Assembly: GCF_000340215.1 (NCBI RefSeq)
Contig: NW_006921539.1
Coordinates: 1,994,507 to 2,058,506, forward strand
From: Pseudocercospora fijiensis CIRAD86
Taxonomy: Eukaryota; Ascomycota; Dothideomycetes; Mycosphaerellales; Mycosphaerellaceae
Length of the DNA: 64,000 nucleotides
Direction of reading: 5' to 3'
Positions 1-47,575 of this stretch are shown in pieces. Within the stretch, counting starts at the first letter, position 1; every line of letters starts with the position of its first letter. The notes under the pieces are model-generated. The model saw only the letters and a program-made list of their open reading frames with translations. It searched no databases and was not told the DNA's origin. Made by a program: the position numbers and the translations under genes.

Positions 1-255
1 AAAGGCATCCGGAAGATCGTAAGCGTCTTTCAGACATTGCATCAATGCTTGTGGAGCGGCATTGGGAGGTTGTTTGGCTGCCACCTTGCCCATAGAAATA
101 AGCGATCCGAAGGCATAGCTGTGAGGAGGTCCCGGAAGTCCATTGACGAGAGTTCTATGAAAGTGTAGTCGCTGGAGGAATCGCAGGATGTACGCAGCCA
201 AGACAAGTCCAACGGCCCAGATCAGATGTGTTCCTGTCAGGGGTTGGAGCTGCAT
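1..255 (-). CDS. Cytochrome P450, N-terminal part (cut by window edge)
   Basis: The minus-strand frame from the ATG at 255 is open to base 1 (85 codons). Residues about 11-30 form a hydrophobic membrane anchor (WAVGLVLAAYILRFL) followed by basic and His residues. Residues 39-44 read GLPGPP, the proline-rich hinge after the anchor of microsomal class II P450s, and the next residues (HSYAFGSLISMGK) resemble the start of the P450 fold. By family knowledge this would be an ER-bound haem-thiolate monooxygenase using NADPH-P450 reductase. The I-helix, ExxR and Cys-ligand regions lie outside the window, so neither the CYP family nor the substrate can be named. It is transcribed away from the Snx4 gene, with which it shares a 560-bp upstream region. 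There is no RIP damage. The class call is fairly firm; whether the gene is intact cannot be seen. Confidence 0.72.
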   Translation of the reverse strand, partial: MQLQPLTGTHLIWAVGLVLAAYILRFLQRLHFHRTLVNGLPGPPHSYAFGSLISMGKVAAKQPPNAAPQALMQCLKDAYDLPDAF

Positions 256-815: not shown

Positions 816-819
816 ATGA
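808..819 (+). promoter_or_regulatory. Three-codon upstream ORF overlapping the Snx4 start
   Basis: An ATG at 808 opens a frame of three codons (Met-Arg-Arg) whose TGA stop at 817-819 overlaps the chosen Snx4 ATG (816-818) as ATGA. If the transcript starts upstream, ribosomes would meet this tiny frame first and could reach the main start only by leaky scanning or reinitiation. The mRNA start is not known from sequence. Confidence 0.35.
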
Positions 820-4900: not shown

Positions 4901-5451
4901 GGCAGCAATTTGGGCCTGACTGCTGTGTTGATGTACTGCCGATTACAAGGGCCGACGTACTCGAGTCGTCCGATTTCGAGAAGTTGTTAGTGTGAAGCGG
5001 GATTCGATCTGCAGCCGTTAAACGGTGACGTTTTGCCAAGCTTTCACATGTGCAAGTCACACAATTATGGCAGGAACGACCACTCTACTCGCACAACATG
5101 GGAAGGGGACATTTTGTACTGTTCAATTCATGTACGCAGCCTACGTACCAGGTCGCAATTCAACCTCAGCAAAAACAGCATTTTCAACGTAAGCATGAAA
5201 CTCCCATTCCCTCTAAAAACGCAGAGCAGTTTTGATGTGCATAAAGCATCGCGAACTCCCTCCTGATGATCATGATGCAAGTCATTCGCCATTGAGCGCT
5301 ATCTGGCGTACGGTCAATGCGCGCCGTCCGCGCGAAGCAGCGATGAGTGGGCTCTCAGATTCCGTGCAGTAGGTGGTGAGCGCCTCGCCAGCCCGACAGC
5401 CGTGTCTCGGCAGCGAACTGGAAGGCTCGTGTGGTGTTGTGATTTCTTCGT
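4901..5451. other. Intergenic: eIF4A 3' end and promoter of the coiled-coil gene
   Basis: Both flanking genes are on the minus strand, so this 551-bp stretch carries the eIF4A 3' UTR and the promoter of the downstream coiled-coil gene. The short plus-strand frames inside show no family resemblance. No repeat or RNA gene is seen. Confidence 0.5.
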
Positions 5452-6075
5452 TTAGATCAAGTCTATCATTCTCATTAGCATCTCATTCATCAGCTCGAGC
5501 TGGATGAACTCACCAGCCACGTTCATTGGCATCTCTTCGATTTGGGTGCTGTAGAACTGCTCGATCTCACGCATCATGCGCACGTCGTCGGCGGTGACGA
5601 AGTTGATGGCAACACCCTTACGTCCGAATCGGCCACCACGACCGATGCGGTGGATGTAGTTCTCACGGTTGGCTGGAAGGTCGTAGTTGATGACCAGGGA
5701 GACTTGCTGGACATCGATACCACGGGCGAGCAGATCAGTGGCGATGAGCACACGGGAAGAACCAGATCGGAACTCCTTCATGATCACGTCACGCTGGGCC
5801 TGGTCCATGTCGCCGTGCATGGCGGAGACAGTGAAGTCGCGGGCAGTAAGCTTGTCGGTGAGCCAGTCGACCTTTCTACGGGTGTTGCAGAAGATGACAG
5901 CCTGGGTGATGGTGACGGTCTCGTACAAGTCGGACAGGGTGTCGAGCTTCCAATCCTCCTTCTCGACAGCAATGTAGAACTGCTTGATACCTTCGAGGGT
6001 AAGCTCGTCCTTCTTGACCAGGATACGGACTGGGTCGCGCATGAACTTGGTGGTGACCTCGAGGACGTCCTGTGG

Positions 6076-6106
<31 letters not shown>

Positions 6107-6911: not shown

Positions 6912-7309
6912 GATTGCGAATCAGACACGGAGCTCACTGGCGCTGCGCAGTGAGCTGGAAAAGTGCGTGGGCGGGGGGTGGGCGGGGATCCTCGTGGACG
7001 CCGGCCGCAATTGGTTTGGTTGTACTGGAAGAACTAGATATCACTGACGGTCGGTAAGGACGGTCAGCTTCTAGTTTGTGCGGCGTGTGGTGTGTGTGTT
7101 GGATTTGTTGGATGGTGATTGAGGAAGTGCGGCGGCAGAAAGATTTCGTATTTTGACAGGGTGTGGGGCGGAAAAGACGCTCTGACCAGCTCGAAGTTTG
7201 AACTTGTGCCTAGCGGACTAGCGTGCCGGTCGAGGCAAACCAAATTTTTCCGAGTCTCTGCCTCACTTGCTGCTTCACACTTCATTCGCCAAGCAGTCCT
7301 CAGCTCACT
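6912..7309. promoter_or_regulatory. Bidirectional promoter of eIF4A and the F-box/JmjC gene
   Basis: The two start codons face away from each other across 398 bp. The eIF4A side has a G-rich run near 6,970-6,980, and the other side has pyrimidine-rich sequence before the ATG at 7310. No gene is seen inside. Confidence 0.5.
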
Positions 7310-8885
7310 ATGACTCTTCCACCTGATAGTGGCTACGATTCTGAGTTGGCCCTCGACTCATCCCGTAGACCGGTTAAACGAATGAGAGTTGGCGGCCACA
7401 ACAACAGAGATGACGAGAACAATACCTTCGTGAGGCGGCACCCGCTAGGTGTGAGGCCATCCGGAAATGCGCTTGTTGCAACACAAAACCTCAAAGACTC
7501 ATCTGGTCGCTTTGCCTTATTGCCAGACGAGCTACTGGCCTCTTGCCTCGACATCCTCCCGCCTCAGGATCTGCTTCGGCTCGGAGGCACGTGTCGGGCA
7601 CTTCACGCATTTACAAGAAACGAGGAATTGTGGCGCACGCTATTTGTTGAGTAGGTTATGCAACGTAGGACTCATAATTGCTCGGCATCATGCTGAGCAG
7701 CACGGTAGGTCATCTCCCCAAAACTTCTCTTGGCAAGGCACGTGGCGCTCGACATACCTTGGACAGCCTGCAAGTCAGGAGCCTAGAGTTGATTGCGGCA
7801 ATCTGTTTTCTGATGTTCTGTATCGCCCTTTCTTCTGCGCCCATGTACCGCTTCACCAGTACGCGCAGGGCATCCCGAAGCAGAATGAGATCGAACGATT
7901 TGGCGATCTCTCCTACGACGAGTTCGCAGCGGAATGGTACTGCCAGCCTTTTATCCTGACAGATCCTGTCAAGAAGTGGCCAGTCTACAAATCCTGGACG
8001 CTCGACCATTTGTTGAACAAATACTCAAACGTACCTTTCCGTGCTGAAGCCGTAGACTGGCCTCTTAAAACTTACATCCAGTACATGCAAAACAGCCGGG
8101 ACGAATCACCTTTATACCTCTTCGACCGCGCCTTCGCAGAAAAAATGAATCTGCACGTCTCCGACCAGCCCAGCGAAAAAGCAGATTACTGGCCCCCAAC
8201 ATGCTTCGGACCAGACCTCTTTAATCTCCTAGGCGATCAAAGACCAGATCATCGCTGGCTTATCGGAGGACCCGATCGCAGCGGCAGTACTTTCCACAAA
8301 GACCCCAACGCAACCAGCGCATGGAACGCAGTGATCAAGGGATCGAAGTACTGGATCATGTTCCCATCCTCACCCTCAATCCCGCCTCCACCTGGAGTTT
8401 ACGTCTCCGAAGACCAGAGCGAAGTCACGAGTCCTCTCAGTATTGCAGAATGGCTTCTCGGCTTCCACGCGGAGGCAAGAAGGACAGCAGGCTGCAAAGA
8501 AGGCATTTGTTATGAGGGAGAGGTGCTTTACGTGCCCTCAGGCTGGTACCACCTAGTCCTGAATCTAGAAACTAGCATCGCCATTACTCAGAACCTTGTG
8601 CCGCGAAGTAGACTTGGAGCTGTACTGCATTTCCTGAGAGACCAGAAGCAGAGTATCTCAGGTTTCAGAGATGATGTGCAAGATCCGTACGGTCTTTTCC
8701 TCGAACGTTTGCGAGAGCATGATCCGGCGCTTCTTGACGAGGGCTTGGCGGAGTTGGATCGATTGAGTAAGATTGGTAAGAACTGGGAGACGATCACGAA
8801 AGTTGATGAGGAGGACGGGGCTGAGCAGGGTGGTTTCTCGTTTGGGTTTGGAGGTGATGACGATGATGATGAAGAGATTCCATGA
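7310..8885 (+). CDS. F-box and JmjC-domain protein (JMJD6-like dioxygenase)
   Basis: Exons 7310-7650 and 7709-8885 give 505 residues. Residues about 67-112 are an F-box (FALLPDELLASCLDILPPQD... NEELWRTLFVE). Residues about 170-415 are a JmjC fold with HKD at 310-312 (Fe ligands His and Asp), K327 in GSKYWIMFP (likely 2-oxoglutarate contact) and the distal His395 in SGWYHLVLN. The C-terminus is acidic (DDDDDEE). The set matches JMJD6-like Fe(II)/2OG oxygenases that hydroxylate or demethylate protein substrates; the F-box suggests coupling to an SCF ubiquitin ligase. The substrate is unknown. The start was taken at 7310 because the upstream in-frame codon at 7223 is GTG. The splice restores Glu114 and places F-box and JmjC in one frame. 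It converges on the lipase gene. Confidence 0.86.
7651..7708 (+). other. Intron of the F-box/JmjC gene (58 nt)
   Basis: Starts GTAGGT and ends GGTAG. It joins GTT GA to G TCA TCT, giving Val-Glu-Ser-Ser. Unspliced, the first exon frame hits a TAG directly after the F-box. Alternative acceptors (GAG at 7697, CAG at 7700) do not fit the phase. Confidence 0.8.
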
Positions 8886-9116
8886 GATGTAGTCGCTCAA
8901 AGTGTTGTCGGCAATTATGCTCAGTGCTGTAGATTACGCGCCATCTACTAGTATGTGACACATCCCAGCATGAATCGATGCAATATTTGAAAGGAATTGT
9001 GACCGAAGCCCACAAAATCGCAATGCAAGGTCTTTCACAACCCCTGTTCATTTCGCCTGTATACTTTTGCATTACATCATAAGGTCGTAGATGTCTAAAT
9101 GTCGTACTGCATATCG
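8886..9116. other. Convergent 3' intergenic region
   Basis: These 231 bp lie between the stops of the JmjC gene and the lipase gene and should hold both 3' UTRs. No other feature is seen. Confidence 0.5.
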
Positions 9117-10397
9117 TTATATTCCAGTGTCCGTAATATTAACAGTCACATTCTCAATCTGACAACCCGTCTGATTCCAAGTTCCTCCTAGCACTTGTTC
9201 CAAGAAAGCGAAAGCCCTCGCATCACCATTCGTCGTCTCATCCGTGTGCCCTCCAACAGTGTTGCGATCATATTTGATCGTAGCGCCAATATTGCAGTAT
9301 CTCTCAACCAGAGCATCGGTGTCGTTGACCGGGCTGATATCGTCCTTGATGGCCTTATATGCGAAGACTGGCATTTGTGGGACGCCATGGTAGCCCATAA
9401 TTCCATCACGGTTGATGATGCGTTGCGAGAGAGGGTTACTGAGGGATTGGTCTCCGTTCTTGAAATAGTCCGAGATGTTGTGGAAGGCGAAGGCTCCGAT
9501 TGATTCTGTTAGGGTTTGGTTGAAGGCCATGAGGAAGCCGGTCGCGTTGTATTCTCCTTCCGTGTTCAGATTCTCTTTAAGGTATTGGAGCAGTTCTGGG
9601 TATTGGCTTGCGAGACCCAGAATCCCAGCTGGGATCAGCCCTGCTGCGATGCCTCCGTTGGTAGCCGCAAGCACGCTGGTCACGTTCGGTGTAAGGCCAC
9701 CCAAAGCTGCACCTGCGAAGCTCAGGTCCTGTGCGTATTGAACTTGGAGTTCTGCTGCCCATTCACTGGCAAGCGCACCGCCTGAATATCCCCACATTGC
9801 GTATCGGGTACCATTTGTATCAAGGCCAAAGCCTGAGTTCAGGACTGCTCGGATGGAGTCGAGCGTGGCGTGGCCAGATTGAACGCCTGCAGTAAAGCTG
9901 GCGTTCGGGCCTTCGTAGTCTGGAACATTGACGAACCAGCCTTGCCCCAATGCCTTCGTCACATCTGGCAAAGCAGCGCCATACTGAGCATATGATGGGC
10001 TAGCATCGACGTCGGCAGAGTCATATGGGACTTGGTATGAAAGCAGCTTGTTAGTGGCTGAAGTCTGGTTTGCGCACTTGGGTGTGAAGAGTGTTGTGAC
10101 TGCCCATGTGGGTCGATATTGGCTGTCTGTGGTGCGGTAGAGGATTTGGTAGGCTTCGCTTGAGTTTGTGGTTATGCTCGTGAGGTTTCCTCTAGCAGCT
10201 CGAAGCCTGAGAATGGCACCTGGAGCAGCAGCCTCGAAATTGTGAGGTGTGGTATACCACGGGTCTTGACTCGGCGGTAAGATATCCACTGGCGTCTGAA
10301 GCAGTCCTTTTCTTGAAAGATCTGTGATCGGATTTGTCGAATATGCTGCGCTGCCAGCAACGAGAGCTGCAATTGGAAAGGTGATAGAGGTCCTCAT
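9117..10397 (-). CDS. Secreted LIP-family lipase
   Basis: A single exon of 426 residues starting at the ATG at 10397. Residues 1-18 are a signal peptide (MRTSITFPIAALVAGSAA) and there are many Asn-X-Ser/Thr sites, so it is secreted and glycosylated. The fold fits the secretory LIP family (Candida antarctica lipase A type): nucleophile Ser205 in GYSGG (203-207), an acidic residue in KDDISPVND (candidates Asp352/353) and catalytic His384 in VGGHTDE. These enzymes hydrolyse triacylglycerols and esters outside the cell and may serve nutrition or host surface breakdown. Length and motif spacing are normal for the family. It converges on the JmjC gene and its promoter abuts the first RIP-mutated element, with the coding region about 520 bp from it, yet it shows no RIP damage itself. 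Confidence 0.9.
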   Translation of the reverse strand: MRTSITFPIAALVAGSAAYSTNPITDLSRKGLLQTPVDILPPSQDPWYTTPHNFEAAAPGAILRLRAARGNLTSITTNSSEAYQILYRTTDSQYRPTWAVTTLFTPKCANQTSATNKLLSYQVPYDSADVDASPSYAQYGAALPDVTKALGQGWFVNVPDYEGPNASFTAGVQSGHATLDSIRAVLNSGFGLDTNGTRYAMWGYSGGALASEWAAELQVQYAQDLSFAGAALGGLTPNVTSVLAATNGGIAAGLIPAGILGLASQYPELLQYLKENLNTEGEYNATGFLMAFNQTLTESIGAFAFHNISDYFKNGDQSLSNPLSQRIINRDGIMGYHGVPQMPVFAYKAIKDDISPVNDTDALVERYCNIGATIKYDRNTVGGHTDETTNGDARAFAFLEQVLGGTWNQTGCQIENVTVNITDTGI

Positions 10398-32800: not shown

Positions 32801-35309
32801 TCCTATGCCTCGTATCGCAACCTATACTTCCTAGTTTAGAAGAAGACAGCTCCTAGGGAACTAAAGAAGTACCGTCTAATTAACGCTATATAAAAGTTTA
32901 ACGTAGTTACGATTAGAGATGCTAACCTCCCTCCGGAGACTAATAGGTTCTCGGAAGCTTTTGCTAACTGTATTATAGCCTTACTAGTTAATGTTTTCTC
33001 GGGCTACGACTAGATCCCTCTCTATCCTAATAGCCGCGACCTTACTAGTTTCGAGACACCTCTTAGGCTATATAGACAAACTACCCTTCTATAAGGGGCA
33101 ACCAACTCCGTAGCCTAGTTCGTTCGTATTATAAACTAAGTCCTCGCGGCCTATATCTCCTATATAGCGATGCCTTTCCTCGACGATATCGGCATTAGGG
33201 CCCTAAAACTAGGTACGATAATAAAGAAGTAGAGCCTAGCATCCGTAGGTTCTTTCTCGAATACATTTAGAACCTCGATAGTGTCCTCTATAACCTAGAG
33301 CGAGCTAACCTAACGGTATATAGGGAGAAGCTTTAGCTCCTATATAAACGAATAAACATTGTCGGGTTTGTAACTAATAAGAACGGCCGCTATCCTAACA
33401 ATATACGGGTCCTAAAGATTGTTTCCTAGCTAGACCCTACCTGTTAGAAAGATATCCGGATCTAGCTTAGAGTAGTCTCCTACTTCCGTATCTAGGTCGA
33501 AAACTTTGCGTTAGTATACAAGCCTCTATACGCCTTGCTTAAGAAGAATACAGAGTTTAAATAGACCTCCGTTTACTAAGCCGCTAAGGACAAGGTTACT
33601 AAGGCACTTGTTAGCGCGCCTACGCTTACCTCTATTAACTACTCGGAAGGCGTAGGTCTACTAATTGTTGCTATCGACTCGAGCGGGGAAGGCTACGGCG
33701 AGATACTAATATAGTATAATCGTAAGGAGCCCTCCTTACGTTACCCTATCTAGTACGAGTCCGGTCTATAGAAACCTATCGAGGCCCGATACGATGCTAG
33801 CAAGCGAGAGTGCCTTAGTATCTATAAGGCTCTTAAGAAGTTCCGACCTTAGCTCTTTAGAGTGTTCTTTCGCCTAGAAGTCGACGCTTAGACGCTAGTC
33901 TATTAACTTAACCGTATAGCCTCCGACCTACCTAACTCTGCGATAGCTCGGTAGGTTGCCTAGATCTATTTGTTTGATTTCGACGTCTTCTATGTTCCTA
34001 GTAAGAAGCATACTAGACCGGATAGCCTTTCTAGAAGGCCTACTATAGAAGAGGACATCGCCGAGATAATAGAAGAAGAGGATATCGACGCGGTTATTAA
34101 CCGCACCTTCTTTACTACCTTCTATATTAATGCTATACCGGTAATTACTAGGCCTACTACCGACGACTAACCTAGTAACTAGCCTAACGAAGACCCTACT
34201 ACTAACGGCGAGGACTAGGACGATACTAAGGCGGGCGAACTAGGTAGGGATAATATCCTTAATAGGGTCTGCTCCGACGACTTCTATAATATCGCCTACT
34301 TCCTTACCTATACGAAGAGAGCTCCTAGTCTATTAAAGAGTTAATACCGTCGTATTATTCGCTATTCTCGGAGGTTCCTTATTAAGGATCGCATCCTTTA
34401 GCGATAGGCTATAGTTAATATACCGCTCTAGCGTATTATTAACGATCTAGTAGCCCGATAAGAAATCCTTCGTTCCGTTTACGATAAGCTCGGCTACCGG
34501 GCGGCGGAGGGCACCTTCGATATCCTTCGTCGACGCTACTAGTAGGACGGCGTATAGGCTAATGTCTCCCGCTACTATAAGAGCTGTCCTAAGTGCAACT
34601 TTAGGAACAGCTACTAGCGTCTAGGAGAGCTATGTATCCCTACTACCTAGTTAGTTAGGGAGCGGTAGTATAGCGATAGGGTCTATCTTAGCCGCAATAA
34701 TAGCCTATATATTATTCGAGAGGGTCTTTCTCGATAGCCGGAGGCCTATTATTTCTATAAAGGTTGCGGTGCTATTAATGCCTGTAATATAGCTACCTTC
34801 CTGTTTAAGGATCTGTTTTACTGCTAGGGAATACCTTACGAGGTTATCTTAGATAACGCTACGAACAATATAGCTAAGGAGGTTTAAGCGCTACTTGTTT
34901 CGTACGGGGCTAAGAACGTTCGTATCTCCCCGTACTATCCCTAGTCGAATACTATTATTAAGCGCGGCTATCGGTCGTTAATTAATGCCCTATCTAAGAT
35001 AACTAATAGTAGCGACAGGTCCGTTCCTATCTCTACCCGCGTTCTAGCCCTTCTCTAGGCGGATCGAACTACTATTATCGATACGACTAGACTTACGCTA
35101 GTAGAGCTTATAATTAGAAGGGACGCCGTTCTTCCGATTGAGTTGTCCTACCGTACGTATAGCGTTTACGACTAGGGGTCTGTTCGTACTAGAGCAGATC
35201 TCCTTGCCCTACGCGCTAAGGCTCTTAAGGATATAACTACTACTTCTTAGGAGGGACTTGCTCGACAACGTCGCCTTCGTAAGGAGGCTAAGTAGTATCT
35301 ATCTCCTAT
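29865..35309 (+). pseudogene. Element A gag (second part) and pol up to integrase
   Basis: Resumes the gag split at 23,295. Zinc knuckle near 30,165-30,200 keeps its ligands (C-x2-C-x4-H-x4-C: MCGGFKHV and LDC). Protease near 31,465-31,540 is degenerate (ILNNSLELLIISKR). RT about 32,560-33,300 with FLDDIGI near 33,175. RNase H about 33,640-34,000 (AIDSSGEGYGE, then ARYDASKRECL). Integrase about 34,430-35,200 with a zinc finger (YYKSCPKCNF near 34,585), ILDNATNN near 34,850 and SPYYPQSN near 34,930. The frame runs into a hairpin at 35,310, where the 11.7-kb insertion begins; the missing C-terminus is at 46,965-47,575. A GC palindrome sits between protease and RT. Stops are RIP-type. Confidence 0.78.
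32138..32164. repeat. GC-centred palindrome, copy 2 (between protease and RT of A)
   Basis: CTAAT-GC-TACCCC and GGGGGTA-TT-ATTAG, 27 nt. Confidence 0.75.
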
Positions 35310-35378
35310 TAGACCCTTGCGAGCAGGCTAAGTAACATTATCCGTTTATTTATAAACGCCTTGCGTAGCAAGGGTCTA
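35310..35378. repeat. Left-end hairpin of the insertion (11-bp arms)
   Basis: TAGACCCTTGC (35,310-35,320) and GCAAGGGTCTA (35,368-35,378), perfect arms, 47-nt loop. It starts where pol of A stops. Confidence 0.75.
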
Positions 35379-35953
35379 AACACAAACTATTAGATTTAGA
35401 TAGCTAAAATAACTAACTTAGCGCACAACGCGAAATACAGAATTGTTAGAAGTGCATCTTATAGCGCGTGCAATTGTAAGTTCAACGCTACAAAAATGAA
35501 TCGCGTGCGACGTTGTAGCGTTAAGATACTATTAATCTCCTAAGCCGGGTTTGTTTAGCTAGCCTATAGCTAGCCGGCTTTAGCTATAGGCCGACAGATA
35601 CCTATATTGCGACACTAATATCTCGAGAAAGGAACTATTAGAGGTTATAGAGCGTGCAATTCTAAGTAGATTCTTTGCTAGGTATAATAGTATATAATAT
35701 TGTTTTAATGCTTCTACGAGCAAGTAGTAGAAGCCGGCTAAATTATACCCTCTTTATTTTACCTACAAACACTTAGCGCTTGTTGCGCGTACAATTCTAA
35801 GACATTCTGTATGCTGTTTATGTCGATGCGACGTAGTAGTATTGTATTCTAGTCGATAAGCGGAGGTCGCTTAGCGGAGCTTATAGTGCGTATATATGTC
35901 CTACAAATTATTAGCACACAGCTAAACAACACACGACTAAACACATACCGCGA
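35379..35953. other. Non-coding left flank of the insertion
   Basis: 575 bp with no long frame. It keeps more CpA/TpG than the coding parts. Two related blocks containing GCGTGCAATT(G/C)TAAGT lie near 35,465-35,485 and 35,650-35,670, and a third similar GCGCGTACAATTCTAAG near 35,785-35,800, so it may contain a dispersed short motif. Confidence 0.45.
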
Positions 35954-36622
35954 TCAGTATCGATTAAAGACTTCCTTAAAAGCCTTAACTAAGTCCTTCT
36001 CGGGTCCCTCGATAATCGACTAGTATGCCGTAGTACGAGACTCGGTACTCTTAGTCTTATCGACAACGACCTAAACCTTAATAACGCCAGATTAGACAAT
36101 ACCGCTGCTGCGAGCAGTACGACCGAGATGTTAAGCGTACTTAGCGAGGTTATTTAGCGTAGTATACTACTAGTCCTATATCTCGAGTAGACTATCGGAA
36201 ACGATACCGGTATAGAAGGCAGGGTTAGTAGTAAGAGTACGGCGAGAAGAAGTAGTTATATTACCGCTCTCGATGCCGCGCTTATATATTCCGATAAGTA
36301 TAGCGAAGGCCTTAGAGATAATGCTGTTATCGCCTTAGATATTAATTATCTATATATCTTTACTATCTCCGAAGACAAGCTTATATAGGGTGCTAACTTA
36401 CAACTCTATTAGCTCGATGCTATAAAGGATACTACCTTCCTTAAGCATACGAGACACTGTATTTACAATAATGTCGCGCTTAACTTAATCGGTATAGGAC
36501 GAGACCTTTATAACTTTAGCAACTAGCTCTTGCATTTCCTTGCTTGTAAGCGCCTCGATGTCAGCGTCTTTAGTGCCCTCGAGTAGATTAATACGGGCGA
36601 TACGCTAGTAGAGATCGGACAT
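35954..36622 (-). pseudogene. Unknown 222-residue protein of the insertion
   Basis: A minus-strand frame from the ATG at 36,622 to TGA at 35,954, broken only by RIP-type TAG/TAA. It begins MSDLY-RIARINLLEG and contains ALTSKEMQELVAKVIKVSSYTD, MLKEGSILYSIELIEL, FGDSKDI, KAFAILIGIYKRGIESG, LAKYA-HLGRTARSSGIV and a basic/acidic end. Predicted mostly helical; no membrane segment or known motif. It diverges from the DUF6589-like gene over about 400 bp, so the two may share a promoter. I do not recognise the family. Confidence 0.5.
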
Positions 36623-37022
36623 ATTATCGCTAGTAGTCTACGGCTCGAGGTAGTCGTTAAGTAGAGCTATACTGTGCTATAGCTCTTGTCTATCGTAGAA
36701 GAGGTATTAGCTTCTACGTATAAGCTTTAGAGCGGTCGACGTTGTTATTAAAGGTTATAGGTTAATGTTCGAAGGTTGAGGTTCGTAGACGCGTAGTAGA
36801 AACGCGTCGACCTATAAAGAAGCGGTACGGATAGTTATATGCGCTAGCGCATATTCCCGTAGATTCTCGGTCCGTGCTTTTATATATACTACGCGACTAG
36901 TCGCGTCTAGGTCTAACCTACTCTCTTCTATCTTACAACACTTGTTTACAAAGTTGTTATTTACATATTAACCACTTCTGTATATTAATTATCCGCCGAT
37001 AAGGCTGCGAGAAGCATACTAA
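36623..37022. promoter_or_regulatory. Divergent region inside the insertion
   Basis: About 400 bp between the divergent unknown protein and the DUF6589-like gene. No frame with coding character. Presumed shared promoter. Confidence 0.35.
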
Positions 37023-40000
37023 TTACTAACTAAACAAACATCGCCGCCCGCTATTATATCCGACGATATACTAGAGGATATAGACCTCGACGATCTACTA
37101 CCGTAGACCTTTACGTTTATAGGCAGTAGCCTAGTTTCGGGCTCTCTTAGAAACATATCGAGCGACCTAAGCGTAGCACTGCTAACATTAGATATCGATC
37201 GCATACAGACTATAGTTAGCCGATAGGCACGTCGCCTCGCAGCTCGTCGTTAAGCGCTAATCCTAGAGATTAGTTCTTAGGCCGGATAAGAAGATAAGGA
37301 CGACCTCGAGAGCGAGGCTTCGGAATAGGAGGATAGAGTAAGCGACGATAAGGTCGAGATAGAGATAATAGCTAACGAGGTCGAAGGCTTTAATCTAGCT
37401 AATAAGTAGGAATCTAATTGCGAGGATAAAGAAGACACTATCGATAGACTACGTATATATAGCGGCAAGCGAGGCAAAGCTCCTACTGCTATTGCTAATA
37501 AGCGCAAGACACGATAGTAGCGTGTAGTAGCCGATAAGACCGACGAGGAGAAGTTTGAGACTCTAATAGCATAGTTTAAGATCGAGTCCCTAGGTGTAAT
37601 AAAGTTCCTCCGCCGGTAGGTCGAGAAGCTAGGTAGCAAGACCTATCGACGTCGTATTAGGTACATTCTAAACAACTTTACTCGAGAATGCTTAATTAGC
37701 GGTCGAGAGTTGCGCTCTAAGTTAAAGAAGCTTATCGGACAGAAGTTCTTTAATAAGTACGATGCGACAAAGGCCGTTAAGCTAGCCGACCTTATAGATA
37801 TAGTAGAAATCATTTAAGAAACCGCTCTAATATAGTACAAGTTGCTCGAGCGTCTACTACTAAACAAGCGTACTAAGGTTAGTATAGACATGTCGCAGCT
37901 AGCTACTAGCGGAGGCGATAATAACGACGACGATTAGGAGGATAAGGATGCCGCCGAAGAACGAGACAAGCACCGCCGATACGAGAAGCATATCTATACT
38001 ATTACTTAGATAGTAGCTCGGTCTATAGCCTTAAAGAAAGCCTGTTTCTTCGCGAAGGGTTTTGGCTTGTTCCTATACACTTCCGGTATTAAGCGGCGTA
38101 TCGTAAATATACTTAGCAGCCTTAGTATATACTTAGCCTACTCGATAATCTAGACAGTCGCTCGCAAGATTGCTATCGAGAATCGTAAGCGTACTATTGC
38201 CCTAGCTAAGAAGATAAAGAAGCAGCCGGTTGTTATTGTCTACGACAACTACTATGTCTCCTAGGATCGTTACGGTATACAAGCTATCGGCTAATCTACG
38301 AAGTAGAGAAATATAACTACTTCTTATATTACTCGATATCGCGCGATAAAGAAGCCGCTCCGCCGGAACATGCTAGATCGTACGAAGAAGCTAAATCCGA
38401 AGGTTATCTTGCGTAGCTATAAGAAGGATGCCGCTCGTAAGGCTACATCTCTATATTATATCGACTAGGCGATAGGCTTTATATTCGGTTCGGAGCTAAA
38501 GAAGCTATTCGAGGACTTCGACTTTAATAGCTATAAATTAACGAAGAATAGCGGCACTAAGACATCGCGTTTACTATAGTACAAGATCCGCATTAAGAAC
38601 CTAAAAGATAGCAGAACGATTATTATCTCGCTGCTAGTGTTAGATTATAATAAGGCCTCGATCGAGGAGACCTATAAAGTATATAACGATATCTTCTAGT
38701 CGTTTCTTAAGCTTGATCCGGACAATGAAGCATTCTAGGACTAGCTTATTATCGTTATTAGCGACTAGCTAACTGTCGAGCGTATTCGCAGCGTCTAAGC
38801 CGGCAGTGTCGAGAGTACCCGTACCTACGACCGCAAGGAGTTTATAGTGCCTATCGCAGCGATGTTCTACGTCGAGATAAACGCCTATTATACCTCTATA
38901 AAGACTTATTATCTGCGGAACAACTACGACAAGGGTAAGAAGCTTGCTTACAACTACTAGGATAATGCTACGTACTATAGCGTAACCCGTCTAACTAACA
39001 AGAAGTACTAGTACTACATTATTAAGTAGGTCGTAGTCCGATTATATCGCGGTCGCATTGTAGCCTTAGTTATTCGAATCTTTATCGACCGTAGCTAGCT
39101 AGACTTTATAGATCCTAAGTTGGCTAATAAGAGCTATATCGATGCTATACGGTATGTAATTAAGAACCGTATTACTCCTAAGCAGTACCTAGAAGTCGTA
39201 GAAGCTGTCTACGAGATAGCCCTTACTTAGAAAGTATAGGTTAGTAAGGATAATACCGGCCGTATCGTCGATCCTAACTTTACTACTATAGCGCGTATAC
39301 TAATTGAAATCGATAACTACCTTACTATCTACGAGGCAATCCGTAAGATAGATATCGGGCATCTTCGACGTATAATTAATATCCTTATACTAAACTTCTT
39401 TAGCGCTTATTAGCTCAATTACGGTCGGGAGATAGTGTATATACGGTAGTTGTTAAGTAGCGTAGCGTACTAGGATCTCTAGGATACAATCCTCGAGTCT
39501 TCCGTAGTTAAGATAGATAGCGGCAGGGGTGTTGCTACCGACGAGTTGCTTAAGCTATATAATAAAGAGTACGTAGACGATATCAAAGCCTATAGCAATT
39601 CGACCTATAACATCGCTACTACTATAGAGCTTATCTCTTAGAACCGCGAGGCTTCGAAGAATATCCGTAATATATTCGAAGGCCTAGGACCTAAGAGCAC
39701 TAGCTACTATACCGAGAAGAAGATTAGTAATTATATCGTAGCCTTTGCTCTAAAGCTAATCGAAGATAGTCTTACTAAAGTCTAGCTATAGGATAGCCTA
39801 GGAGAGGATATACGAGTCCTATTAGACGACATTTAGCAGCTCGGCGTAGCTCAAATCGTACTAGCTATCGAGGTACTGCATTAGGCTAATATGCGCCTAG
39901 TTAGAGGCGTAACTCGCACGTCGGCTAATACTACTACTAATAGTATAGATAAGATCGATAGTGCTAATGCGAGGGAACGTATTAATAGCGGTGCTAATCG

Positions 40001-40118
40001 AGGTCCCGTCGCTACTAGCGTAGTAGATAATAATACGGCGTTCCTATATAAGCCGTTCGTAGACGATAAGGGCTTTGCTAACCTAGACTTAGAAATAGTC
40101 GATGCTACTAGTATATAA
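37023..40118 (+). pseudogene. DUF6589-like protein (candidate transposase), broken by RIP
   Basis: One plus-strand frame of about 1,030 codons with no net frameshift, ending TAA 40,116-40,118. Residue blocks: an acidic N-terminus; a basic helical region (near 37,560-37,790); then from about 38,010 the part resembling the fungal DUF6589 family, with VVIVYDNYYVS near 38,230, TTSYITRY near 38,320, NMLDRTKKLNP near 38,370, IIVISD-LTVERIRSV near 38,750, MFYVEINAYYTSIKTYYLRN near 38,860 and a long helical C-terminus. Asp residues in YDNY and SD-LT and the later His/Tyr-Val-Glu could be an RNase H-type catalytic set, which would suit a transposase; that is my inference. The start is not visible. Stops are TAG/TAA of Gln/Trp type. 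Confidence 0.6.
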
Positions 40119-40324
40119 AGGCTCGGCGGATCTAAAGCATGTAATCTAACGCTTAGAAGTGTTGTAAAGCTAATAGTAGGAGGGCAAAGTAAAGTCGTAA
40201 TTGTAGCTTATATCGTTCCTTACTCTATTGTAAGGGCATAACAATAAGAGCTATATATATATCAAAATTCATATCCGCGGCTTTCTTTCTTCTTTAGCGA
40301 TACAGACACTATCCTTGCTACTAA

Positions 40325-40690
40325 GCAGGCTCTTCTATTATGTCCTCGTAAGCTCGCTAAGCAGGTTTGCCCTTCGTAGTCGAGTACGTTACCTTAGCTA
40401 TTAACGCGCTTGCTTAGCGGTAGTTTGCCCTCGTAGTCGAGCACGTTGCCTTAGCTATTAACGCGCTTGCTTAGCGGTAGTCTTAGTCGTACGTCGATAG
40501 CTAACCTATATACTAGCTCTTTACTACTCTTCTATTATGTCCTTATAAGCTCGCTAAGTAGGCCCTTCTTCTATTATGTCCTTATAAGCTCGCTAAGTAG
40601 GTTTGCTCTCGTAGTCGAGCACATTGCCTTAGCTATTAACGCGCTTGCTAGTAGCCTTAGGTATGCTAATAGTCGCTAGTATGCTAATAG
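40325..40690. repeat. Interleaved direct repeats of about 40-50 bp
   Basis: A block with CGTAGTCGAGCACGTTGCC and TTAACGCGCTTGCTTAGCGG occurs near 40,376, 40,431 and 40,610; a second block with CTATTATGTCCT-GTAAGCTCGCTAAG occurs near 40,335, 40,531 and 40,570. Differences are RIP-type. Confidence 0.7.
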
Positions 40691-40978
40691 TCGCTAGTAT
40701 ACTAATAGTCGCTTATATTGCGAGGAAGTAGGAACCGTAAAGTCGAGGAAGCGACTAGGATATCGAGTCCCGCCAAGACCCGGATTTAGTATAGTAGGGC
40801 GCCTAATTAGCGGGATTAAACGTTATAGCTACTTCCTTCCGCATATTATAATAAAACATAATACCGACTTTACTACTTTTACGCTACTACGAGCCTGCGA
40901 CGAGATACGTCGATTAAGCGCATTTCTAGTAAATAGCGCTAGCAAAAGTGTCTAATACGATAACGACGGCCGCCTTAG

Positions 40979-41557
40979 GCACTAAGAACCGCCTCCGAAG
41001 CCCGAGAAGTCGAGAAGTCGAGAAGTCGAGAAGTCGAGAAGTCGAGAAGTCGAGATACTAATACTAATACTATACTTATTATACCGCGTGCTCTTGCAGG
41101 CACTACAATATATACGGCAAGGATAGATACGCGAGGCGATAACGTATATCGAGCGCAAGCACTCTTCGAGAAGCTATAATAGCCCTCTTACGTTAACGCC
41201 CTCCTTAACTAAATCTTAGTTACGATCTACTAGAAGGACTAGCTGCTATGCAAGACAGTATAGATAAGAGCAATTGCGTCTAGGGATCTGTTTAACTAGC
41301 GGTACTAAGCGGCTATAGAAGTACACGCCCCGTTACACACTAGAATTATATATAGCCTATTTGCTACGGGTACGCGTAACAAGTACAAGTATATATACGC
41401 GTATACGTAGCAATTAGCGCATTCTATTACTAACTATAGTACGTATAACCGAAGACAAGGTATGTAGGACGGGACTTATTAAGCGAAACATAACAGCCTA
41501 TTCGCTAAAGCGATACCTATTAGTACCTAGACAATAATAGATATAACGCGCCCTTAG
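40979..41557 (+). pseudogene. Possible fourth frame of the insertion
   Basis: About 190 codons on the plus strand broken only by TAG/TAA. After an Arg/Ser/Glu repeat made by an 8-bp microsatellite it reads TILIIPRALAGTTIYTARIDTRGDNVYRAQALFEKL, then QILVTIY, LLCKTVQIRAIASRDLFN and HAPLHTRIIYSLFATGTRN (stops within the quoted parts removed by cutting). No family is recognised. Support is the lack of other stop types and frameshifts only. Confidence 0.35.
41003..41055. repeat. 8-bp microsatellite (GAGAAGTC)n
   Basis: About six and a half units in direct tandem, almost perfect. Too short and uniform for a CRISPR array. Confidence 0.9.
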
Positions 41558-41904
41558 TGTTAGAGACACCGTAGAAGAGGTTATCGAGCGCGTTATAGTT
41601 GTATAGCAATGTCGATGCGCTTGCTAGAACAAAAGGAGGCGCACTATAGTCGGATAATAGTCTTAATGCGCTTTCGGATCGGTGCGCACTATAGTCGAAT
41701 AGCAGTCTTAATGCGTAAAGGGCTACAGTCGTATAGCAGTAAAGACTAAGCGCCTTCGGGCTTAATAAGTGCACTAGAGGCCCTTACGCAACGACTAAGG
41801 TTATTATAACTAACAGTCCTAACGAAGGCGTTACGCCGACTTAACTAGATACGCGTATATTATCCTGTAAAGAATCCGAACGTAGGAAGCCTATAGCCGC
41901 TACT

Positions 41905-42090
41905 TAAGGTGTACCTTACTAAAGAGTTTTTACCGAGTTAGGCCTATAGCAATGCTACGAACCTATCCTATCTACTTAGTAGGAGAGTCGCTATCGAGCC
42001 GCTACTTAAGGTGTACCTTACTAAAGAGTTTTTACCGAGTTAGACCGTTAGCCGCATTATAGGTATACCTTACTAAAGAGTTTTTACCTC
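41905..42090. repeat. Three copies of a 30-35 bp block
   Basis: GTACCTTACTAAAGAGTTTT or close variants begin near 41,909, 42,012 and 42,065; the first two extend to GAGTTAG and are preceded by GCCGCTACTTAAG. Confidence 0.75.
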
Positions 42091-42465
42091 CGCTAATCTA
42101 CCCGAGACCCGTAGTTTGTTGCACTAAGATAAGACTGCGATCTAACAAAAACTATACTCTTTCGGTTAAATGCGTAGTCGGCGCCCGCTAAAGCTATAGA
42201 AAACAACCTACTCGCTAGGAGAGTCGCCTTCGTAACGTCTTGCGTCGATAAAGCCTATCGGAGACTAAAAGGACTAAACAAACCACCTGCCGAGGAACCT
42301 TAACTATTAGATAAGCGGCTCTATCGATAGCAAGTCGTAGAACTAGTAAGGAATAGTGTTGATCGCTATAGAGCTACCTATATACGACAAAGAGGTATCG
42401 ACACTGTTACTAAGAAGCCGATAGCTAGTATGTTGCTAGGGGTGTTAGTATATTAGTATACGTAT

Positions 42466-42491
42466 AGAAGAAGAAGAAGAAGAAGAAGAAG
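42466..42491. repeat. Trinucleotide microsatellite (AGA)n
   Basis: About eight perfect AGA units. Confidence 0.9.
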
Positions 42492-42756
42492 TTAAACTAG
42501 GAAGCGTAGGTCTACATTAGCGCATCGCAGGTAAGCTTTGCCTCTACTAATAGTATTGCGCTATTCACGACAATAGCAAGGCAACAATAACGGCTATACG
42601 TTACCGCCGACTGCTGCTAGTCTAGTTAAATGCCTAAGGCTACAATTGCTAGCGACGATAAGTACTATGTTTAGTCTCCGGACACGCTCAAGGATAGATA
42701 GATTAGCCGGTAACGACGATAAGCACTGCGCTTATCCTTCTAGATACGCTTATACG

Positions 42757-42836
42757 CTAATATAGCTATACGACAACAAACGCCTATTAGCAGGTACAGG
42801 GTAATATAGCTATACGACAACAAACGCCTATTAGCT
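42757..42836. repeat. 45-bp tandem duplication
   Basis: TAATATAGCTATACGACAAC and the following CAAACGCCTATTAGC occur twice, at about 42,759 and 42,803, with no differences in that core. Confidence 0.8.
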
Positions 42837-43110
42837 AGGCACAAGCTATACGCCGCGCCTAGTTGGCCGTCTTAAACCCGGATAAGGATTACTATATGTT
42901 TAAAGACCTAGCAATAGGAGCAGCACTAATCAAAGATACTGTTAGATTCTCCCCGAACGACTATAGAAGTAGAAAGCATTCTTAATCTACTAATCTATAC
43001 TCGCCGCCTATTGTTTTAATATTATCCTTCTAGCATTATGTCCTATACGAGACTCTTCCCTTTTCCCTCTTCTATCTATATCTAAGGACCGCTAGCGTAA
43101 TTGTGCTAAA

Positions 43111-46100
43111 TTAATAACGACTAAAGAGCAGCTTATCCTCCTTATTATTACCCTCCTACTAGCTTATATTACGCCGACGAGCTAACTTACGCGCAGATAG
43201 ACGAGTAGAGCGACTTAAGCGACGACTAGATGCTAGGCTAGAGAGACGAGCTGCCTGCTGCTAAAGACGCTCTACTGCCTCGAAGTCTTCGTCTTCTACC
43301 GTACGTCTACTACGACCCTAAGATCGATTAGCAGCGGCAGTCTTACGAAGCTAATTCTTGCGAAGTTTCTGCGACACCTTAGCTAAGTTGGCTATATTCT
43401 GCTCGATCTGTACTCGGCGCTATGCCTATATTGTTAGTTAAGAAGGACTAGGCTTAGTAGCATCTACTATAGCTATAGCGCGGGCGGCAGCTTTAGCCTT
43501 TGTAGCCTCCTTTGTAGCCTTCTTAGCTTTATTCTTTTCGTCTTACTTAACCTAGGCAGTACGATTAGTAAGAACCTGCTTAGCGACACGATTGATCTCC
43601 TAGACTAGATCCTATAGTAGCACGTCTCTCTAGTACTTATTATTCTCGCGGAGCTATAATATAAATGCTAGTATACGCTCCTCGATCTTAGTCTCGTCTA
43701 CGCTACTAAAGCTCTCGATATCCTTGCTATACTTCTCGTTAAAGAGCTCGTACAGATCCTATAGTATTGGATCCGGCATTAGGAAGTTGGATAGTACGAC
43801 CTCGAATATGCGGTTCTCGTATAGGTCTTCGTAGAGCTGTTTAACACGCTATAATACCTAATTCGAGAGATCTCGCAAGGCAAAGGCCTATATAGAGTTT
43901 GCAGTTAGAGCCTTAATAGGCTTCGGGGTCGGTAGTAGTTCTCTCTAGAAAAGTAGCTCTAGTAGTTCTAGATTATATATACTATAGTAGTCCTTAGTGC
44001 CGACAACCTCCTTGTCCGGAGGGAATGTACACTAATCTTCCTTATAGAATTAGAGCATTATAGTATAGAAGCAGCGGCGGTATTCGGGGTTAGGGTAATA
44101 GCGCGTATTCTAGACATGTCTTAAGATATTAGGCATAGCGTTACGCTACCTAATCTCCTTTGAATTCTAAGGCTTCTTGCTTGCGTTGTCGGCGATCGCT
44201 TTCTCTACTGCCGTATAGAATAGGTTGTCGATAAAGAGCCTAGGACCCGGATTGCTAGTATTGCTAGGACCCGGATTGCTAGTATTGCTAGTGCTACCTA
44301 AGCTAGCAACGTAGGTCGTATCGTTAGTATCGTCCTCCTTACTACCCTCCTCTTCGTCGTCTATACTAAACTTATCGAATAGAGTATCGGTATTATCCTT
44401 ATTAAAATCCTCGCTAGGGACAGTAATATATCGGAGGTAGCTTAGGCGGACTAGTACAATAGCTACTAGGTAGTAGGCCGAGGCCTAAGCTATAGCGGTG
44501 CTAGTAGTAGGAACACTAGTAGGCTCTCTTAGGATTATTAATCGATAGTTAGACTTAGCTAGTATACGCTTAAACGCATCGTCGATATACTAGGGTAAGA
44601 AGATAATAGCAAGCGCGGTAAGACTAGCGATACGCGCCGCACGACTAAGCTTCTATATTAGATTATCGAGATCCCTAGTAATAGGGAACTTGTACTAGCA
44701 GACTAGCTTAATATCTAGGATGTTAATACTAACTACTGTCGCTAGTATACCCTAAAGAATGCGGATGCGGGAATCTAGCTTCTTAAACTCCTAATATCGC
44801 TTATCCTTGTCGATCTTAGCTATATAAGCGGTATAGAAGCTAACAATCTCGTATACATTAATCGTATACGGTACTCTAGCTTCTATCGGCGCACTATCCT
44901 ATATATACTTGCGGTCGCCCTAGGCAGGCTCTTTAACATAATTAGTAAGCTAAATGAGCTATAGCATAAGCTACAAACGACCCTTATCTACTAAGCCTCG
45001 GCCGTCGATAAAGATTATTGTCTTCTAAATATTCTACGGAGTTGCGAGGCCCTTATTATCGATTGCCTTGCGCAATACGAAGTACAGATACCGGAAGTTA
45101 TTAGTCTCGGTTTGCTTAAGAATTTGAAGGATATACTTACTATCCGGACGATTAATGCTACCGCGGATAATCTGCGTATATAGCGCAGCTAAACTCTAGA
45201 TGCGGAGACTATTATTAATAAGATACTTCTTAGTCTTATCGGAGACTATAGCGGAACACGCTAGCAGCACGGTGTTGATACTTATTAGCTGCCGAAGCAA
45301 ATAAATAGTACCGTAGCTATTGCGGAAGTCCTTCTACTTAAGATAAAGATAAGCCTTATCCTATACCTATAAACCTAGCATTAGCTTAATCGTACGCACG
45401 ACATCTTGAAATGCTAGAGTTACAGCTTATTTAGGGCTGTAGATAATATAGTTGTATTTGCCGTTCTTAATGTCCTTTAGTATATCTAGGTCCTTCTTAA
45501 GTGTGTCGGCGGTTAATACGCATATACTAACAAGTGCGTATTCTTCTAGACGGAGCTAGCGTATAGCCTGCTCTATATCCGTACCCTGTTCTTCTATAAT
45601 CCGGGTTAGAGGCACAATCTAGAGAGTTATTATACTAGTTAGGAGGGTGAAGGCCTAAAAGACTAATGCCTTGCCTACGCTAGTACGAGCGATTATAAGC
45701 ACATCCTATTAACCGAAGATTAAGGCGAGAACTACTATAATCTGTAGGTTAGAGGGCTTAGAGTCGCGCGAAGGATATAGCAGTCTTAAGACCTTGCGAA
45801 GACCGTAGCGGATAATCTAGCGATAGTATACTAAGGCGGCCTTATACTAGCCGGCATTCTAGACTAGCTACTAAACCTGTTAAAGCAGCGTATCCTCGTT
45901 CTTAATTATAGTATAGGCGACGCTGAAGTAAGCATCCTACTCTTGTACTAAAGCATCGATAGTAGGCAATATAGGAGATAGATCGCACGTCTATATTAGC
46001 TCTTCGCGTATAATAGGGCTACGATAAACCGTAGGCGCTCGAGGTTAATATATTAGCTAATCTTCTTAACGCGATAGGCTAGCAGCACTAACGCCGCCGC

Positions 46101-46218
46101 CGCCGCGACCTAATCTACGATAAGTTAGCCGACCGCGACTACTACTACGACCGCGACTAGTAGCAACCTTTACCGCTTTCTGCTAGCGCTTCGATATGTT
46201 TAAGTATTCGCCGGGCAT
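43111..46218 (-). pseudogene. RecQ-like SF2 DNA helicase of the insertion, broken by RIP
   Basis: A minus-strand frame from the ATG at 46,218 to TAA at 43,111, 1,036 codons with no net frameshift. Arg/Gly-rich N-terminus (SRGRSSSRGR), then motif Ia/Q region, Walker A-like IIARTSVGKALVF near 45,690, PLTRIIEEQ, motif II as DKAY near 45,385 (normally DEAH; Glu to Lys and His to Tyr fit G-to-A and C-to-T), motif III CSAIVSD near 45,245, and motifs V-VI near 44,650-44,800 (ATVVSINILDIK, KFPITRDLDNLIQKLSRAAR), typical of RecQ-type 3'-5' helicases. The C-terminal third is Asp/Ser rich, then a basic coiled coil. In mobile elements such helicases may unwind the ends or aid replication of the element. 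Numerous TAG/TAA stops make it inactive. Confidence 0.7.
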
Positions 46219-46874
46219 AGTAGGCTTGTTATAGTTGTACGGACTAATATAGCGTGTTTGTAAGGGTCGGCGGTGTCGGAAGATATGTTATCAGAAGATA
46301 TATAGTAGCACTCGAGTGTCGCTCTTAGTAGCGGCAGAGATTGATATAGGCGGAGGCTTTAGTAATACTTATTTGAAGTGTTTGGGACTTGATAAAGGTC
46401 TAGCAGTGTTACGCGATGCTTAGTAGAGTGTTTGCGAAGGTTCTAGTAATAGGAGACAAGAGCGCGGCTTTGTAGGCGGAAACAAGAGGCGTATAGGCTA
46501 GTTATAAGCTAAAGTATATAGACTAAGTAAAGCGTAAGACACGTATTCAAAAACACTTAGAGGTAATAGAGCAGGTCTTTCTTAAGGGGATTATGTGTTT
46601 TAAATAGCAGATACGAGTATTGGTAGATTGTCTAATATAGGTGTTCGTACGACAAACGCGAGCTTATATAACTGTCCCTTCGTAAAAACAGTCTTATTTT
46701 TCTATAGGTCGCAGTTCTATATATTTTTTTCACGTAATACGCCTAAATCATTCACTTACGTGCCTTCTAGAACCCCCTTTATATATGTAATACGCTTAGA
46801 CCTCTAGTTGTTATGCTATTTAATGTCTAAATCTGTGTTCTCGGGAGTGTAGTGTCCGTTTTCAACGTTTTAAG
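46219..46874. other. Non-coding right flank of the insertion
   Basis: About 650 bp upstream of the helicase gene, less RIP-altered than the coding parts. It should hold the helicase promoter. No frame or RNA is seen. Confidence 0.45.
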
Positions 46875-46964
46875 TTTAGGCGCTTCGCTAAGACTTAGCT
46901 TGCCTTAGGTATTAATTTAGAACCGAGATAACCGAGAGCACAGACCTAATGCGAAGCGCCTAAA
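46875..46964. repeat. Right-end hairpin of the insertion (14-bp arms)
   Basis: TTTAGGCGCTTCGC (46,875-46,888) and GCGAAGCGCCTAAA (46,951-46,964), perfect arms, 62-nt loop. Pol of element A resumes directly after it. The stem shares a TAGRCSCTT pattern with the left hairpin. Confidence 0.75.
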
Positions 46965-47575
46965 AGGAGGTAGAGCAGTATTTCGACGACTATAATGCTA
47001 TTAACTAGGAGCCTCTAAAGGTTAGCGATATAGTCCTTCTATACCGGTCCGAGCTAGAGTATAGTTACTCCTATAAGCTAGCCTTTAAGTAGAAGGGTCC
47101 TTATAGAGTAAAGGAGGTCCTTTACTCGGGTTCCGTATACCTTCTTTAGGAGCTAGATAGTGCTACCTTAAAGCACTCTTACCCTCGGGCTAATCTAAAG
47201 AAGATCGTTAAGTTACGCGAACCTGCCCGCCCTCTACCGACCGAGGAGGAAGTTAGTGCCTCTATAGACCCTCTACCGTCCTTAGATGCCTATCGGGAGG
47301 AGGATCCTACCGCTATTATAGATCCTGTTCTATCTAAGAACTATGCCTATCCCTAGATTCGTCTTAGTAAGCTATTAGGAATAACTTAAGAATAAAGGGA
47401 GGGTTATATGCGGATTAACTATATATAGAGCGTTTCCGATATTAATTCCGATTCTAATAGTAAACTAGACTTCTAGCTATCTAACTCTAACTCCGAGGAG
47501 GAACTCGACTAGTCTAGCGACGAAGACCGCCTAGAATTATAGGTATTAAACGACCCCGACCCCGAGACTAAATAA
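46965..47575 (+). pseudogene. Element A pol, C-terminal part
   Basis: The frame reads EVEQYFDDYNA, then EPLKVSDIVLLYRSELE, GPYRVKEVLYSGSVYLL and LKKIVKLREP, the post-integrase region of Gypsy pol (the SH3-like GPFR/GPYRV module), followed by an acidic tail ending at TAA 47,573-47,575. It continues the pol that stops at 35,309, so the 11.7 kb between is an insertion. Former Trp/Gln codons are TAG. Confidence 0.78.

Follow-up and report, generated by a model that had tools for sequence, protein, structure and literature searches.

A DNA transposon of Pseudocercospora fijiensis that pairs a DUF6589 gene with a RecQ-like helicase gene, a candidate new superfamily

What kind of element carries a RecQ-like helicase gene and a gene of the DUF6589 family into a Gypsy element, and which of its proteins moves it? 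The question is raised by a stretch of 64,000 nucleotides from Pseudocercospora fijiensis CIRAD86 (contig NW_006921539.1, positions 1,994,507 to 2,058,506), referred to here as the window, in which a Gypsy copy is interrupted by a block of about 11.7 kb. An earlier note on this DNA had proposed the block as a candidate undescribed mobile element that moved as one unit, with the DUF6589-like protein as its transposase. The block is indeed one mobile unit and a genuine DNA transposon, of which the genome holds at least eight copies that have both ends. The DUF6589 protein is likely to be the transposase, its catalytic role being read from the protein sequence, and the element is a candidate new superfamily. 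We consider it quite probable that a unit with fixed ends inserted with an 8-bp duplication and was afterwards damaged by repeat-induced point mutation (RIP), with DUF6589 serving as a DDE transposase and RecQ as a captured accessory.

Copies, ends and empty sites

Searches of the genome (73.9 Mb in 30 contigs, labelled G000, its contigs C1, C2 and so on) found eight copies with both ends and both genes, that of the window included, at different loci and each between 8-bp target-site duplications (Table 1). Six of the duplications are perfect and two, including that of the window (AGTAGTAT and AGCAGTAT), contain one transition, such that 62 of 64 positions are equal over the eight copies. The duplicated 8 bp have a different sequence in every copy and no obvious common target sequence. 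Interiors were aligned for the window copy and for those at C1:3213799-3232848 and C7:176606-207235 (hereafter the C1 and C7 copies), the five flank-read copies being identified by both ends plus both genes. Of the 11,675 element bases, 11,648 align in the C1 copy and 11,362 in the C7 copy, and the ends of the other seven copies are 83-95% identical to those of the window. The proposals of the earlier note that the block is multicopy and moved as one unit are both borne out by these copies.

The insertion site itself is equally clear. The 400 bp to the left and to the right of the insertion were queried separately, and 17 paralogous Gypsy copies occur both among the best 40 of 394 left candidates and among the best 40 of 396 right candidates. 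In all 17 the left and right flanks meet directly, with an overlap of exactly 8 bp, which confirms that the block interrupts a Gypsy copy. Comparison with the other copies places sharp element ends at 35299 (CTATCTCCTATTAG...) and 46973 (...CTAAAAGGAGGTAG); the block had been recognized correctly in the earlier note, and the borders given there, 35310 and 46964, were 11 and 9 bp off.

The fixed ends are of the CTAYCTCC... type and form imperfect terminal inverted repeats (TIRs) that agree at 12 of their 14 outermost bases. When the left 700 bp were compared with the genome, 33 of 36 matches started at base 1, and the terminal-repeat pattern occurs 100 times in the genome versus 20 times for a reversed control pattern. 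Just internal to the inverted repeat at each end lies one palindrome, and these two are the sole perfect inverted repeats within the element (arms of at least 12 nt with at most 80 nt between); such arm starts number 268 across window positions 17001-64000, of which 4 are within the element. The palindromes could be a natural substrate for the helicase or for specific binding. Inverted ends fixed in eight copies and a constant 8-bp duplication, the two marks of a TIR DNA transposon, are both present.

Table 1. Features of the element and its copies. Positions are those of the window unless a contig is named.
Feature	Position	Strand	Basis or remark
Whole element, 11,675 bp	35299..46973	+	Shared ends and 8-bp duplications, 8 copies
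Target-site duplication, left, 8 bp, AGTAGTAT (right copy AGCAGTAT)	35291..35298	.	Flank comparison
Target-site duplication, right, 8 bp, AGCAGTAT	46974..46981	.	Flank comparison
Left terminal inverted repeat, CTATCTCCTATTAG	35299..35312	+	12/14 bases equal to the right one
Right terminal inverted repeat, CTACCTCCTTTTAG on minus strand	46960..46973	-	Comparison with other copies
Left subterminal palindrome, perfect 12-nt arms 35309-35320 and 35368-35379, 47 nt between	35309..35379	.	Inverted-repeat search
Right subterminal palindrome, perfect 14-nt arms 46875-46888 and 46951-46964, 62 nt between	46875..46964	.	Inverted-repeat search
DUF6589 gene, about 1026 codons, RIP-broken, probable transposase	37107..40184 (domain 38562-39671)	+	Pfam match, codon bias
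Spacer S between convergent genes, tandem repeats, little codon bias	40518..42656	.	Inverted in related family
Gene for a RecQ-like helicase, disrupted by RIP, about 1101 codons	43060..46362	-	PDB, NCBIfam and Pfam matches
Copy, duplication GCTAGAAC perfect on both sides	C1:3213799-3232848		Read through; other insertion within at 3218222-3225352
Copy, flanks GAAGGGGT and GAAGAGGT	C7:176606-207235		Read through; holds nested insertions
Copy, duplication TACGCGCT, perfect	C1:11666419-11678376		Flanks read
Copy, duplication CTTTGCCC, perfect	C2:5718490-5729941		Flanks read
Copy, duplication CAATTCCC, perfect	C4:6047676-6058903		Flanks read
Copy, duplication GGCTCTCG, perfect	C1:10847746-10866157		Flanks read
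Copy, duplication GCAGTCAT, perfect	C1:6580258-6591777		Flanks read
RecQ loci without DUF6589 seen	C13:141868, C3:1274758, C1:3896982, C3:1536429, C6:209799, C2:7966093, C9:3051735, C8:571694

RIP damage and codon-level constraint

As the earlier note had supposed, the block is strongly marked by RIP, with a TpA/ApT index of 1.80 and a (CpA+TpG)/(ApC+GpT) index of 0.45, compared with 0.53 and 1.33 in window positions 1-10000. Over the aligned bases, 498 transitions and 38 transversions separate the window copy from the C1 copy, and 689 and 83 separate it from the C7 copy; 426 of the 498 and 470 of the 689 transitions are in CpA/TpG context. Transversions amount to only 0.3% (C1) and 0.7% (C7), so that before RIP set in the copies probably had almost the same sequence.

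Constraint on the reading frames was assessed from the codon positions of transversions versus related copies in 300-bp bins, with alignments above 96% identity or shorter than 150 bp excluded; the counts pool related copies and are hence non-independent. Within the DUF6589 gene the transversions favour the third codon position, with a chi2 of 12-82 in seven of eight bins from 37699 to 40098; bias is weak at 38899-39198 (chi2 3.5) and at 37399-37698 (chi2 3.0). The notion of a coding third gene in spacer S was rejected on the same test, chi2 being 0.1-9.3 in the seven bins of 40399-42498. Consequently, the 222-residue gene and the fourth gene suspected in the earlier note were not confirmed, there being little codon bias in that region and too few informative differences in 35299-37099. 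The bin 42499-42798, within the presumed spacer, has a chi2 of 15.9, for which a short gene or the pooling of related copies may be responsible.

The DUF6589 gene

DUF6589, a fungal Pfam family of unknown function, is matched by the plus-strand gene of the element, as had been claimed. The match to PF20231 reaches an E value of 3e-31 (109 bits versus a cut-off of 27) in a longer read-through and 4e-25 with stops read as X, and all nine members of the DUF6589 alignment (A1) match the same model. No function is given for this family in Pfam; here it is placed within an element with defined ends. The genome holds at least 102 DUF6589 loci above the Pfam cut-off (the best 102 of 177 candidates), of which 74 are without RecQ within 8 kb. 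From this wide occurrence, DUF6589 is likely to be the transposase, and RecQ would be an accessory restricted to a single clade.

Conserved acidic residues are consistent with such a role. Conservation was scored over up to 31 domain sequences, allowing for the RIP changes D to N and E to K. By this measure D553 (24 D, 7 N), D620 (26 D and 2 N of 29), D722 and D749 (29 D and 2 N each) and E816 (27 E, 4 K) are conserved. In the eight rows in which distances were measured, D553, D620 and E816 are spaced D-64..67-D-194..224-E, as would suit a DDE transposase that has a helical insertion. The transposases of hAT and of Zisupton/KDZ are DDE enzymes with an insertion before the E; we know of no RecQ gene in either. 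Between the second D and the E, where hAT, P, MuDR, Kolobok and Dada have a C/DxxH signature, lies a possible D-x-x-H motif, in which the first position over 31 rows is D in 29 and N in 2 and the fourth is Y in 20, H in 6, a stop in 3 and L in 2.

DUF6589 families also occur apart from RecQ. One of these (the L032 group, with loci at C6:4434906, C6:670933 and C2:1170703) has 11 members without RecQ within 8 kb, which are 94-96% identical to the first member; nine of the ten align over nearly all of the 4.2 kb compared and one over 2.5 kb. Homology within this family extends beyond the compared loci, and in four other groups it stops inside the loci. At loci L037 and L054 homology begins at the same position, 1445, 56 bp before the domain match, possibly an element border or a truncation.

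The RecQ-like helicase gene

The minus-strand gene is RecQ-like, in agreement with the earlier note. Its matches in PDB include 23 sequences with an E value of at most 1, of which 22 are named RecQ, RECQ5 or WRN; the other is 1oyw, annotated as an ATP-dependent DNA helicase, which we take to be E. coli RecQ. The NCBIfam recQ_fam model is matched at an E value of 7e-12, yet with 45 bits versus a curated cut-off of 220. Pfam DEAD is matched slightly below its cut-off (E 5e-5), and Helicase_C scores at its cut-off in the C7 copy.

With the window RecQ protein as query, 44 stretches (from the best 42 of 263 candidates) merge into at least 42 RecQ loci. Apart from two short merged-in pieces these are 33-94% identical to the window RecQ, the 94% being the window itself. 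A genome search with the DEAD family found at least 39 stop-free, host-like matches. One stop-free DEAD-box helicase match lies in a part of the window not affected by RIP, at 6058-6519 on the minus strand (C8:2000564-2001025).

Pairing of DUF6589 and RecQ

The two genes are also paired outside the eight copies. A DUF6589 domain is found within 8 kb at 28 of the 42 listed RecQ loci, as compared with about 2.6% expected under uniform placement, and in all 28 pairs the genes are convergent, with gaps of 1.9-5.4 kb. Ten of these pairs contain a RecQ only 34-38% identical to that of the window. At four more RecQ loci (C2:2309575, C6:1787150, C7:177217 and C7:776433) the nearest DUF6589 is convergent at 14-26 kb, C7:177217 being the RecQ of the interrupted C7 copy. 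Of the other ten RecQ loci, that at C1:3214410 has a DUF6589 part in the DNA alignment, though missed by the domain search, and convergent DUF6589-like DNA likewise missed by that search is present at C7:946280-947578, next to the RecQ at C7:950962.

The left terminus follows the same association. Within 12 kb upstream and on the same strand, it is found at 17 of the 28 DUF6589 genes that have a RecQ partner, in 15 cases at 2.3-3.4 kb, but at only 3 of the 74 that have none (C7:202775, C2:2294046 and C6:1770852); these three have a convergent RecQ 14-22 kb away. Eight of 33 left termini are without a listed DUF6589 locus within 30 kb, and one of these belongs to the C1 copy, which has DUF6589. 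In its usual form the unit runs from the left end through DUF6589 (forward), spacer S and RecQ (reverse) to the right end.

A tree was built from 34 sequences of the DUF6589 domain, taken from the 30 loci with the best scores (of at least 102) and from the window, C5, C2 and C7 copies. It places the eight RecQ-labelled rows within one clade of nine with a support of 98/94, most RecQ-paired loci lying outside this sample. The ninth member, L051 (C7:804980), has a convergent RecQ 26 kb away. We conclude that DUF6589 is likely the invariant part of these elements, with RecQ an accessory that belongs to a single clade.

Spacer S and rearrangements of the cassette

Related families differ from the window copy in the orientation of their parts. 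In the family at C5:4751811-4761887 and C2:4288047-4297674, S is opposite relative to both genes (S at C5:4755588-4757684). At C4:5150298-5161224, where RecQ is 68% identical, the DUF6589-RecQ cassette is reversed relative to both termini, with left-end matches on the RecQ side and a right-end match on the DUF6589 side. A like reversal is suggested at C11:64559-72465, judged from the left end alone, and the cassette at C7:928901-937949 may be reversed likewise.

Relation to known systems and alternative explanations

Within the open-access papers searched the element can be called undescribed, a scope narrower than that of the earlier note. No paper containing "DUF6589" was found there, "PF20231" gave one irrelevant match, and no description of a DUF6589 and RecQ combination was found; Repbase, subscription journals and preprints beyond that set lie outside this scope, so a Repbase entry is possible. 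Helicase-bearing repeats are known from fungi. KolobokH, a group of TIR DNA transposons known only from fungi, encodes a RecQ helicase, and a red-algal Kolobok carries RecQ on the complementary strand (PMC9587614); the helicase alone is therefore not new. AcademH elements, like the element here, are fungal DNA transposons with helicase domains, namely DEAD/Helicase_C (PMC10799480). The telomere-linked RecQ helicases known as TLH (Y'-like) are also RecQ-like genes repeated in fungal genomes (PMC4522978); they are tied to chromosome ends, whereas RecQ lies here inside elements with TIRs and target duplications. A target duplication of usually 8 bp is common to hAT, Zisupton/KDZ (PMC12730594) and the present element, which differs from them in that DUF6589 has no Pfam match to a transposase family.

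The RecQ gene could also suggest that the element is a KolobokH with an aberrant target duplication. Both are RecQ-encoding TIR DNA transposons, and a KolobokP lineage is described as departing from TTAA with 3-5 bp. However, Kolobok elements are described as having TTAA duplications and ends of the type RR..YY, and the RecQ of KolobokH lies downstream of the transposase domain; here none of eight duplications is TTAA, all eight being 8 bp, the ends are CTA..TAG and RecQ is a separate convergent gene. We think a KolobokH origin very improbable. Carriage by a retro-element, a Helitron or a Starship is disfavoured by the fixed ends and the 8-bp duplications, a Helitron being expected to leave no target-site duplication. 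No match to a Rep/HUH protein or a DUF3435 tyrosine recombinase was found in the frames scanned, which exclude the plus frames of 40503-46973 and the minus frames of 40512-42600.

It is hardly conceivable that the block arose by nesting, with DUF6589 and the helicase brought in by two separate insertions. Spacer S alone does match 10 loci outside the window family, four of them without a RecQ match near, but the other six adjoin a RecQ match, the outer ends and 8-bp duplications are shared by eight copies, and the close pairs are uniformly convergent even where RecQ has diverged to 34-38%. The copies thus refute this explanation, and the observations that the earlier note had named as refuting its own proposal were not made: all copies have the same ends, and every pair closer than 8 kb has its genes in convergent orientation.

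Several results weigh against a DDE transposase assisted by RecQ. None of the nine DUF6589 copies matches a Pfam transposase family (weak matches above E 0.1 having mostly been dropped), and this includes the hAT transposase domains and the KDZ transposase domain. Pfam holds a KDZ transposase model, and we know of no Academ model there. A PDB search with DUF6589 gave no matching chain and NCBIfam one chance-level match only. In a set of 5.8 billion proteins, which may hold few fungal ones, about 8000 candidates were scored per search, none at an E value of 0.001 or below, and no relative was found in viral contigs or prokaryote genomes; that relatives exist is shown by the Pfam family itself. 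With regard to the earlier claim that this protein is the transposase, wider occurrence, codon-level constraint and D-D-E-like acids speak for it; the single-sequence structure model of the RIP-damaged protein is of low confidence, with a mean predicted local distance difference test score (pLDDT) of 32.4. At 620 and 816, where two of the proposed three acids would stand, the window copy has N and K, which we take to be due to RIP, and at the D-x-x-H motif H and Y are indistinguishable because RIP turns CAY (H) into TAY (Y). For the RecQ gene there are too few differences for the codon-bias test, and its C-terminal part has sub-threshold matches to DDE_Tnp_1 (E 0.08 and 0.13) in two of three copies, taken here as chance. 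Eight of the 42 listed RecQ loci have no DUF6589 seen near them (Table 1). Lastly, the counts of 102 and 42 stem from different methods and from best-scored lists (102 of 177 and 42 of 263), and so "DUF6589 is more numerous" is not a fair count.

These results leave room for two further explanations. DUF6589 could itself be an accessory, the element being moved by RecQ, by the product of a third gene or by an enzyme acting in trans. RecQ helicases do occur in other fungal repeats (PMC9587614 and PMC4522978), DUF6589 catalysis is unproven and the sub-threshold DDE_Tnp_1 matches lie in RecQ. However, copy number has also risen in DUF6589 families that have no RecQ within 8 kb, as in the 11 members at 94-96% identity, RecQ has multiplied without a DUF6589 seen at only 8 of 42 listed loci, and the third gene was not confirmed. 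We regard this explanation as unlikely. The element could instead be a remote lineage of a known 8-bp superfamily (hAT, P, Zisupton/KDZ or Sola1) in which DUF6589 is a diverged transposase with ordinary chemistry that picked up RecQ. P and Sola1 also produce duplications of 8 bp, the length found here, and the D-64..67-D spacing is near that of hAT. Against such a placement are the missing Pfam and PDB matches of DUF6589 and the ambiguity of H and Y under RIP. Membership in a known superfamily is a serious possibility, if somewhat short of an even one.

Proposed mechanism

In the reading that we prefer, the DUF6589 protein would act as a transposase of the DDE type, with an RNase H-like fold. 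It would bind the element ends together with their subterminal palindromes and join the ends to target DNA at positions staggered by 8 bp. A single capture would have brought RecQ into one clade of DUF6589 elements, which would have retained it since; most likely the helicase would unwind the palindromic ends, or aid the repair or re-copying of the donor gap after excision. A fuller version, which we hold to be about evenly balanced, is that DUF6589 founds an undescribed superfamily of eukaryotic DNA transposons with 8-bp duplications, that an old clade captured RecQ once and co-diversified with it as a second gene in convergent orientation, that the helicase acts on the palindromes at excision or donor repair, and that the cassette can flip relative to the ends.

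A high-copy family (at least 102 loci), at least one clade of which is in transposons with defined ends, thereby gains a testable function. Repeats of the DUF6589 type become recognizable and maskable in genomes, and they are a possible source of RecQ-like repeats. Because a TIR element has kept its RecQ while the helicase sequences diverged to about 35% identity, a role of helicases in DNA transposition becomes directly testable.

Partial copies and neighbouring sequences

A ninth copy, at C13:141285-145153, is incomplete: it matches window positions 43053-46945, and the next 6.8 kb are without a match. Some 200 bp separate the C1 copy from sequence resembling S that belongs to a different DUF6589 element (C1:3233056-3234921), which suggests nesting or clustering. 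At C3:3765708-3765839 two inward-facing copies of the terminal repeat are 132 bp apart and accompanied by similarity to the right end; this is probably a tiny non-autonomous derivative.

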